Below are positions 49,338-53,211 of a stretch of DNA of 64,000 bases, piece after piece (the stretch's first letter is position 1; each line of letters starts with the position of its first letter). Both the position numbers and the translations under genes were made by a program. The stretch is from positions 2,542,001 through 2,606,000 of the forward strand of contig NZ_CP032683.1 in assembly GCF_001304615.2 (NCBI RefSeq), written 5' to 3'. The notes beneath the pieces were generated by a model. The model ran no database searches and had not been told where the DNA came from. It worked only from the letters and a program-made list of their open reading frames with translations. The DNA is from Methanosarcina flavescens. Its GTDB lineage: Archaea > Halobacteriota > Methanosarcinia > Methanosarcinales > Methanosarcinaceae.

Positions 49338-51152
49338 TCATACCGCATCTTCAAGATTAAGCCTGGGTGCGACTCCCAGTGATTTTATTTCGTCAAGCAG
49401 CAGTTTGAATGCGTAGCTCATTTCCACAGGATATATATCCGTGTCAGCCCCGCAGGCTGAACAGAATGAAACATTCCGCTGCTTGTCATACGTTGCAATC
49501 ATTCCACAGTGAGAGCAGACAAGTTCCACAACTTTATCCGATTCGTCAAGCAGCCTCTCTTTCAACGACATGGCAGCTCCGTGCCCTACCAGCACATCAC
49601 GCTCCATTTCTCCGAATCTGAGACCACCTTCTCTGGCCCGGCCTTCGGTTGGCTGGCGAGTAAGCACCTGTACAGGCCCGCGTGACCTTGCATGCATCTT
49701 GGAAGTAACCATATGGTGCAGTTTCTGATAGAGAATAACCCCCACAAAGACATCTGCCGGAATCATTTTACCTGTCGTTCCATCGTAGAAAACTTCTTTT
49801 CCAGTATGGGCAAACCCATGTCTTTTCAGGGCTTCTCTAAGGTCTTCTTCTTTTTCTCCGGAGAAAGCTGTCGCATTTACTCTCCGGCCTTCCATGGAAC
49901 CTACTTTCCCGCCAATCATTTCCAGAACGTGACCCACAGTCATACGGGAGGGAATTGCATGCGGGTTAATCATCAGGTCAGGGGTTAGACCGGATTCCGT
50001 AAATGGCATATCTGCAATCGGGACTTTAAGACCTATAACACCTTTTTGCCCGTGTCTTGAGGCGAATTTATCTCCTATATCAGGAATCCTTTCGTCTCTT
50101 ACCTTTACCTTTGCAAGTCTCGTTCCGTTAATGGACTCGGTTAAAATTACCGTATCAACAATTCCTTTTTCGTTGGACCGCATGGTGACAGAGCTTTCTC
50201 TCCTTTGCTCAACCGCAATCCCGAAATCTGACGGTTCTTCAAGGAATCTTGGAGGACTGGTCTTTCCGATCAGCACGTCGTTAGGTCCGACCGGGGTCTC
50301 TGGGTTTACAAGTCCATCGACATCGAGATTAGCATACGCTTCTGCGCTGCGAGCTCCACGGTATTCGGAATCGGGAATCTCGAACTTATCTTCCTGTCCG
50401 CCCGGATACCTTCTTTCTTCACCTTCAAAAGTCCTGAGGAAGTGACTTCTCCCGAGACCTCTTTCGACTGAACCTCTGTTAATAACCAGGGCGTCTTCAA
50501 TATTATATCCTTCATAAGACAGGACTGCAACCACGAAGTTCTGCCCTGCGGGTCTGTCGTCAAAACCTATTGCTTCCGAGGTTCTGGTACTGGTAAGTGC
50601 CCTTTGAGGATAGTGAAGGACATGGGCACGAGTATCAGGTCTGAGTTTCTGGTTAGCAGTTGCAACCCCGATACACTGCTTGATCATGGCTGCACCCATA
50701 GTGTTACGCGGAGATGAATTGTGTTCCGGATAAGGCACCATTCCCGTAGAAATACCTAATATAAGTTCGGGATCGATCTCCATGTGCGTGTGCTTTGGGG
50801 TAATGTCGGCCTCGTAGAGCGCAATATAGGCATTTTCTTCTTCCTCGGCATCGAGATACTCTATACAGCCCTCTTTTACCAGGTCGTCAAAATTGATCTC
50901 CTTGTTTTTAATCTTCTCTATGTGATCAGGAGTTACTTTCAGAGCTCCGTTCTCCACAACTAAAAGGGGCCTTCTTGCTCTGCCCATATCAGAGTTTATA
51001 ATTACTTCTCTTGTGTTATCGTTAAGAGCGACATTTACCTGTCTGGATATGAATCCCTGCCGCCTCATTTTTCTGAGCTCTTCTACAAGCTCTGCAGGGT
51101 TATCATGGGTCCCGACAAGCTCCCCGTTTATGAATACTTTTGCTTTAGTCAT
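49338..51152 (-). CDS. rpoB1: RNA polymerase subunit B'
   Basis: C-terminal part of the second-largest subunit, 604 residues from the ATG at 51152 (GAGGGGT about ten bases upstream; an in-frame TTG at 51170 would overlap rpoB2). Active-centre segments: [55 protein letters not shown], and the C-terminal zinc ribbon [23 protein letters not shown]. The B'/B'' split is characteristic of methanogens. Confidence 0.98.
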
Positions 51153-51166
51153 TTGACATCGACCCC

Positions 51167-52816
51167 TCAATCATCGTACATAGATCCGAGATCTTCCATA
51201 TCTGAATAATCGTAGAATTCATCATCTTTATATTTGGTTTCGATTTCTGAAGGCTCTTCAAACTCTTCTACAATCTCTTCTCCGAACTCGTCAAGTAGGG
51301 TTTCCTTCAGCTTGGCAGGAAGTTCGGGTACTTTTACAACCACACGCTCGACATTCAGGTCGTAGAGTATTTTCTTCACGCTATCGGTATCTTCTATTCC
51401 TGTTGAAAGCTCAACCATTTCGGCAAAGTTTTTCACCAGTCCACAGTTCGGGCCTTCAGGAGTTTCCGAGGGACAGAGTCTTCCCCACTGGGTTGCGTGC
51501 AGGTCTCTTGCCTCGAAGTGAGGCTGGGCACGTGAAAGCGGAGATATTACACGGCGCAGGTGGGAGAGCGTTGAGATATAGTCGTTCCTATCAAGGAGCT
51601 GGGATACACCTGTTCTTCCTCCAACCCAGTTTCCGGTTGCGAGAGGGTGCTGCAGGCGGTCAGTGAGCACATCTGCCCTTACTATTGTGGCGACGTTCAG
51701 TTCCCTGTTCCTCATGTTTGCGCGCTCCAGCTGGAACTTTATGTCTCTTGCAAGTCTGTTGAAAGATACTCTAAAAAGGTCTTCCATCAGGTCACCTGCA
51801 AGTTTCAGTCTTTTGTTTGCATAATGGTCTTTGTCGTCTTCCGCACGCTTGCCAAGTGCCAGCTCAAAACAGGATTCAGCCATTCTTGCCAGGAAGTGAG
51901 CTTTGGAGACCCGGTCCCTCATATCGTTTCCAAGATGTGGGAACAGGTACCTGTCAATAACGTAATTTGCTCTTTTTATCTGGTATTCCTTGGCCTGGCC
52001 TGCAGCAACCCTTGCTCCTATTTTCTCGATTGCTTCTTCCTGGGTTTCGACTTCGGCTTCTTCCAGGTTCTCCAACATAAACTTGATAATTTCGGGATCA
52101 CTTGAAACTGCATTTACGATATCTTCGTCAGTTACTACCCCAAGCGCTCTCATAAGGGTAATGAAAAATACCCGGCCTGAGATAGAAGGGAAAGAAACCT
52201 CAAGCAGGGATTTTCTTCCTCTTTCCACGATCACGAGCGCTCTGTATCCGCGTCTCTGGGAGAAAACCTTTGCAACCTCTATAGTATCGCCGTACCTCTC
52301 ACCATATTCTACAAGAATCTTATTAGGAGCGAGGTCCTCAAGGGTCATAACCACCCTTTCGGTACCGCCGATAATGAAGTATCCCCCTGGGTCAAGTGGG
52401 TCTTCCCCATAGCGGATTTTTTCACTTTCGCTAAGCCCTGGAAGGTTACAGATCTTGGATTTGACCATGATCGGAAGCTGTCCTATTTTTGACTCCATTA
52501 CCTCGGATTCAACCCCGTCTTTTACCACGCTCATCTCAAGATAAAGAGGGCCTGAGTACGAGAGGTTCCTGAGCCTTGCCTCGTTGGGATAAAGTTTTTC
52601 AATTGCCCCGTCAGCTTCCTTTACCACAGGATGCTCTACCCGTATCTTGCCGAGTTTCAGGTAGGTGTCCTCGATATCGGTTTCTATTATTCTTTGTTCA
52701 TCTATGATCTTTTGCAGCCCGTAATCTATAAACTTATTGAATGAATCTATATGGTGCTGCACTATCTTGTCCCGTGTAAAATAAGCCTGCGACAGTATAC
52801 TGGTTTCTATTACGAT
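51167..52816 (-). CDS. rpoB2: RNA polymerase subunit B''
   Basis: N-terminal part of the second-largest subunit, about 540-550 residues. Conserved: [104 protein letters not shown]. The first conventional start codon is GTG at 52762, but homologous sequence continues upstream ([17 protein letters not shown]), and GAGGGTG at 52822-52828 marks a ribosome-binding site at 52816-52810, where only ATC, GTA or ATA codons stand. I therefore set the end at 52816, with a non-canonical start. Confidence 0.95.
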
Positions 52817-52821
52817 GATAG

Positions 52822-52828
52822 CACCCTC
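52822..52828 (-). promoter_or_regulatory. Ribosome-binding site that places the rpoB2 start
   Basis: GAGGGTG on the minus strand. It sits 6-12 bases before the ATC/GTA/ATA codons at 52816-52808 and 60 bases before the GTG at 52762, so it argues against the GTG. Confidence 0.6.
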
Positions 52829-52974
52829 TTTGCTTTGTTATAATGAGAATCAAGAAGTTTTGATCTTCTGATCGGTATGCGGTTGTTAAATTTTTCCGTA
52901 TGATGGTGCATGGAATTCAAAAAACATTCCTTAAAGAGTACATGAGATCATGCAAGCGGTCTACTCCCCTCCGC

Positions 52975-53211
52975 TTACTCGATCACAAGTCTGTAATACT
53001 CTGCCTCCCCCGCAGTTTGACTTTTTCTTGTGATTTTCACTACGTCTCCGACGGCAGCTCCTATTTCCTTAATAATAGGATCCTGCACTTTAATTTTCGG
53101 AAGTTGTTCCTTTTCAATTGAATACTTGCTTAAAACAGACTTTAACTCGCCCTCAGACATGATTTCATGTTTAGGGACCAACTCATGGTCGAGCAGGCTG
53201 AATTTTGTCAA
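52975..53211 (-). CDS. rpoH: RNA polymerase subunit H
   Basis: 78-residue subunit homologous to the C-terminus of eukaryotic Rpb5: LLDHELVPKHEIMSEGELKSVLSKYSI, LPKIKVQDPIIKEIGAAVGDVVKITRKSQTAGEAEYYRLVI. TTG start at 53211 with GGAGG about seven bases upstream. First gene of the rpo cluster. Confidence 0.97.
   Translation of the reverse strand: MTKFSLLDHELVPKHEIMSEGELKSVLSKYSIEKEQLPKIKVQDPIIKEIGAAVGDVVKITRKSQTAGEAEYYRLVIE

Follow-up and report, generated by a model that had tools for sequence, protein, structure and literature searches.

The essential gene rpoB'' of Methanosarcina flavescens, encoding an RNA polymerase subunit, is probably translated from an AUC codon (52816-52814, minus strand) that is served by a Shine-Dalgarno (SD) sequence. 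The same AUH start (AUC, AUA or AUU) would be used family-wide in the Methanosarcinaceae and would have been kept since before the radiation of the family. On the basis of comparative sequence reading, a probability of roughly 0.8 is assigned to this interpretation. The window, i.e., the whole analysed stretch of 64,000 nucleotides, is part of a Methanosarcina genome of 3.28 Mb in a single contig. The following features are referred to throughout:

51167 to 52816, minus strand: rpoB'' coding sequence as re-read here, stop codon included, identified by its match to NF007175.
52814 to 52816, minus strand: putative rpoB'' start codon ATC (AUC); 106 of 107 family genomes have AT[CAT] when aligned here.
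52763 to 52816, minus strand: 18 codons, conserved in 107 genomes and in outgroups, lost if translation began at GTG 52762.
52760 to 52762, minus strand: GTG, the first start codon of the conventional type, discounted as the general start; GTG in 60 of 107 genomes, weak SD match.
52822 to 52828, minus strand: SD sequence GAGGGTG, complementary to the 16S tail GGATCACCTCCT; 5 nt separate its GGTG from the ATC.
52810 to 52824, minus strand: out-of-frame mini-ORF GTG CTA TCA TCG TAA opening inside the SD sequence, a rival start; GGTG in 103 of 107 genomes.
52838 to 52840, minus strand: in-frame upstream TAA that closes the frame, by sequence reading.
52975 to 53211, minus strand: rpoH, the upstream neighbour, with a TTG start and GGAGG; NF007129, 133.1 bits.
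49338 to 51152, minus strand: rpoB', the downstream neighbour, with an ATG start; TIGR03670, 1035.8 bits.

The open frame of rpoB'' covers 51167-52837 on the minus strand, with TAA 52840-52838 upstream and the stop codon at 51167-51169. The protein read from stop to stop belongs to the archaeal RpoB'' family, scoring 859.8 bits against the NCBIfam model NF007175 (cut-off 355), with query residues 11-500 aligned to profile positions 3-492 of 496. Alignments with the B subunits of solved archaeal RNA polymerases begin at query residue 13-15. GTG 52762 corresponds to residue 26, thus a start at this codon would drop a conserved N-terminal segment. The gene order is rpoH, rpoB'', rpoB', rpoA', rpoA'', and all four neighbours of rpoB'' were matched by NCBIfam models. 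The start of rpoB' was ATG in 28 of 28 genomes read. The start of rpoH (53209-53211, minus strand) was TTG in each of the 33 Methanosarcinaceae genomes read; rpoH and rpoB'' would be adjoining genes with weak starts.

On the minus strand the upstream TAA is followed by CAA AGC AAA GAG GGT GCT ATC (52819-52817) ATC (52816-52814) GTA (52813-52811) ATA (52810-52808) and then by GAA ACC AGT ATA CTG TCG CAG GCT TAT TTT ACA CGG GAC AAG ATA GTG (52762-52760). Between TAA 52840-52838 and GTG 52762 the rpoB'' frame has no ATG, GTG or TTG. The original prediction, that no conventional start precedes GTG 52762 and that homologous residues continue upstream of it, was confirmed by frame reading, the NF007175 match and the B-subunit alignment. 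Conservation in the omitted block was 0.84, 0.89 and 0.61 at the first, second and third codon position, respectively, in a profile of 95 family genomes from which the genera g12 and g6 and the genome G105 were left out. Thirteen ORFs in the window were conserved in at least three of five syntenic Methanosarcina genomes; among them, only rpoB'' had a long conserved extension before the first canonical codon that was otherwise unexplained, the extension of rpoA'' in the same control being explained by overlap with the end of rpoA'.

The family sample comprised 111 Methanosarcinaceae genomes of 14 genera, of which 108 presented a match and 107 were read at the N-terminal region (no match in G043, G057 and G077; a match without N-terminus in G031). 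All 30 Methanosarcina genomes searched had the rpoB'' frame, and the 20 bases GCAAAGAGGGTGCTATCATC, ending at ATC 52814, were identical in 30 of 30, with a majority-base conservation of about 75 % in the stretch just upstream. At a fixed site 11 codons before a YF motif, 106 of the 107 family genomes carried AT[CAT] (ATC 62, ATA 33, ATT 11, ATG 0), and no indel was present between this ATH codon and the motif. The codon preceding ATH was not an isoleucine codon in 20 of 107 genomes (AGT, AGC, ACC, ACT, ACG, AAC, CTA), and the codon following it had ten forms (GCG, GCA, GCT, GTA, GTG, GTT, ACG, ACA, ACT, ATT). Since both flanking codons vary, the single conserved codon is ATC 52816-52814. A start at ATC, GTA or ATA (52816-52808) had been proposed; the comparison supports this proposal and would narrow it to the ATC. 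An in-frame stop was present 4-32 codons upstream of ATH in all 107 genomes. Between this stop and the YF motif, 76 genomes lacked any in-frame ATG, GTG or TTG and 31 had some canonical codon; with AUH in 106 of 107, the gene would qualify as one with an AUH start of the infC type and no alternative canonical start. Canonical alternatives close to ATH are a GTG right after ATA in g9, a TTG two codons after in g10 and a GTG three codons before in three of the five g6 genomes; these genomes could use their nearby canonical codon instead. Counted from ATH onward, the first canonical codon was 29-94 codons downstream in 25 of 107 genomes, and 94 codons in seven of those. Sequencing error, which the original prediction had named at 52814-52819 as a possible refutation, is ruled out by an arrangement common to 106 of 107 genomes. 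The other objection raised there, homologues with ATG at the place of GTG 52762 and no conservation upstream, fails as well: this place holds GTG in 60 genomes, GTA in 40, GTT in 4 and GTC in 3, and conservation continues upstream.

The GAGGGTG ribosome-binding site that had been predicted is located at 52828-52822 and pairs with the 16S 3' end CTGGATCACCTCCT, present in three copies in the genome. The spacing from the GGTG core to ATH was 5 nt in 99 of 107 genomes. Expressed as aligned SD spacing, ATC 52816 had a value of 13. Among the 19 window ORFs that show an SD-like run, 13 had values of 12-16; this set was chosen mechanically and includes some false ORFs. The SD sequence is at a proper distance for the AUH start. 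In three of the five g6 genomes, GGTG and ATH stand one nucleotide further apart (spacing 6), and the SD GTG is in frame; the remaining two have GAGGGG in place of the lost GGTG. This one-base insertion and the loss of GGTG indicate that ATH, rather than the SD sequence, determines where the reading frame begins.

For the outgroups, 60 loci were readable (63 named loci L111-L173 minus L125, a family member, and L127 and L142, which were cut off), covering Methanoperedens, ANME-2, Methanothrix, Methanocellales, Archaeoglobi-like and halophilic archaea. All 60 starts were canonical by automated choice, with ATG in 44, TTG in 13 and GTG in 3. In the loci nearest to the family, the start aligns one codon after ATH, not with ATH itself. 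An apparent TTG start at the homologous place was observed in nine loci of Methanothrix/Methanotrichaceae (L115, L120, L122, L123, L124, L126, L130, L132, L133), a lineage-wide weak start. The ANME-2 loci carry GGAAGGTGC leaders upstream of a normal GTG start, which makes an inherited SD sequence, not a start, the best interpretation of the GGTG in the family leader. From these alignments it is plausible that the ancestral start codon was lost, e.g., by a change from GTG to GCG, and that AUH, one codon upstream, took over as the start. A gene tree of 90 of the 107 rows, those with at least 900 bases of the gene, recovered the genera and required eight changes at the codon, seven at the third base, none of them to G, and one to CCA. 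The chance that seven third-base changes all avoid G is about (2/3)^7 = 0.06 if the alternative bases are equally likely; these substitution counts would be weak evidence of selection against AUG. The absence of ATG proves little by itself, as the same would hold for an internal isoleucine codon constrained by its amino acid.

In all six genomes of genus g12 (G095-G100; L054, L058, L063, L065, L069, L074), a GTG lies seven codons 3' of the old ATH, preceded by a new SD sequence, GAGGGC, and in G095 and G097 an in-frame TAA stands two codons after the vestigial ATC. The g12 genomes appear to have switched to this canonical GTG start, thus the first residues of RpoB'' would be dispensable. G105 (L080 / L206) is the sole family genome read that has no ATH; it has CCA instead, and a 2-base difference puts the SD GTG in frame. 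G105 is a draft genome, and the difference may be an assembly error.

Other positions of the start were considered. Initiation at GTG 52762, the first canonical codon, with the upstream block as an untranslated regulatory element, could draw on the GTG found at this position in 60 of 107 genomes; however, the remaining 47 have GTA, GTT or GTC, residues that align with solved archaeal RNA polymerases would be lost, the conservation of the upstream block is codon-shaped and the SD match is weaker, so that this start is extremely improbable. Coding further upstream, with KEGAII read as protein, was ruled out by the stops 4-32 codons upstream in 107 of 107 genomes, which in some stand directly before the SD sequence (TAA AAA, TAA AGG, TGA GGT), and by the extra nucleotide of three g6 genomes. 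A codon adjoining ATC 52816 is a more serious candidate, if still an improbable one. Outgroup starts align with GTA 52813, where g9 has a GTG, and SD spacing is still possible for GTA 52813 and for the first ATC 52819. However, most of the ten codons at the GTA position have at least two mismatches to AUG (GCG, GCT, ACA and others), and the first ATC is replaced by non-isoleucine codons in the 20 genomes noted above.

The GTG inside the SD sequence (52824-52822) could also be the start, out of frame and followed by a -1 shift, or could open a regulatory upstream ORF coupled to a later start. GGTG is present in 103 of 107 genomes and out of frame in 99, with a stop within 1-5 codons in 92 of the 99. 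Its conservation is already explained by an SD function, as in the ANME-2 loci; moreover, it is absent in four genomes and in frame in four, the stop of the mini-ORF follows only 32-39 codons on in seven, and no separate SD sequence is properly spaced from this GTG. No repeated slippery run was seen by eye at the site in the 5' ends read, and the combination of conserved zero-frame start, slippery site and structure that defines a programmed -1 frameshift was not found. We consider the chance of either variant to be small. Finally, an AUG absent from the DNA might be supplied at the RNA level by editing, splicing or a joined leader. Nothing supports this directly, and it is very hard to reconcile with an SD sequence and start that are contiguous and normally spaced in 99 of 107 genomes, and with three different third bases that would each need a change to G.

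According to the preferred reading, initiation at the AUH codon, the GAGGGTG sequence would place the 30S subunit at the rpoB'' AUC, and the initiator Met-tRNA (anticodon CAU) would pair with the A and U of AUH, the mismatch at the third base being tolerated. RpoB'' would then presumably begin with methionine, and initiation would be weaker than at AUG. In a reconstituted bacterial system, the first two start bases need Watson-Crick pairs and the third is more tolerant, while IF3 penalises weak third-base pairs (reported in PMC10158994). In Sulfolobus, aIF1 reportedly helps to discriminate against non-canonical starts (cited in PMC6237735). Speculatively, the weak start may be kept to limit or regulate RNA polymerase synthesis, e.g., via aIF1. 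An extension of this idea is a selected, AUG-excluding AUH codon as a translational gate: aIF1 activity or initiator tRNA supply would set the amount of RNA polymerase, so that for the whole rpoH-rpo-str cluster the capacity for transcription would follow the state of translation initiation. We regard this gate as unlikely. In M. mazei, the ribosome occupancy of rpoB/A falls under nitrogen limitation (according to PMC11456600), which is compatible with a regulated rpoB'' start and not specific for it. Neither a shared fold nor consistent burial of the start was found among 12 leaders folded individually. A leader motif defining a regulon was not apparent in this genome: the 15-mer GAGGGTGCTATCATC occurred once, and with up to two mismatches in seven places versus three for a reversed-pattern control, all six other near-matches having two mismatches.

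AUH starts have a precedent in bacteria, where infC, the essential information-processing gene for initiation factor IF3, has a conserved AUH start (AUU) behind an SD sequence. Its change from AUU to AUG abolishes autocontrol, to judge from the title of Butler 1987 as cited in PMC9845219. The two genes have essentiality, a role in information processing, a conserved AUH start and a preceding SD sequence in common, and differ in that rpoB'' is archaeal, encodes an RNA polymerase subunit and has a third base that drifted among C, A and T. The rpoB'' product is not an initiation factor, therefore direct self-control of the infC type is not implied. Among archaea, L12ae of Staphylothermus marinus had no valid start, and ATC was proposed from alignment with other archaea (described in PMC2678158). 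It is likewise an essential archaeal gene with an ATC start deduced by comparison; it is, however, one gene in one genome, whereas the rpoB'' start extends to 106 of 107 family genomes, involves AUC, AUA and AUU alike, and was apparently given up for GTG in one genus. For HVO_1510 of Haloferax, several orthologues lack canonical starts and peptides were found upstream of the first alternative start; a CTG start, or slippage from an ATG in another frame, is what its authors propose (PMC8305020, as excerpted). This archaeal gene shares the missing canonical starts, but its start is not AUH and its product is not RNA polymerase. Also comparable are the rpoB'' genes of Methanothrix (TTG) and ANME-2 (GTG), i.e., the same gene with a homologous N-terminus and a weak start, in ANME-2 also with a similar GGTG leader; their start codons differ in being canonical and located one codon further 3'. 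The accessible text of a review on archaeal initiation names AUG, GUG and UUG only (PMC7531240). A search of the open-licence literature retrieved no paper on an AUH start of rpoB''; the start may already be annotated somewhere. The parts available of the M. mazei Ribo-seq paper (PMC11456600) make no mention of rpoB'' starts, and those of PMC8211752, PMC10342651 and PMC3035285 contain nothing on AUH starts.

On the comparative evidence, rpoB'' would join the known AUH-initiated genes and would be unusual among them as an archaeal RNA polymerase gene with a nearly family-wide start of this kind. This raises the question why a weak start of RNA polymerase persists while g12 moved to GTG. Gene callers limited to ATG, GTG and TTG would truncate the essential rpoB'' in nearly the whole family. 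In the genetically tractable Methanosarcina, a family-wide AUH start would make it possible to study in a natural setting how aIF1 discriminates between start codons.
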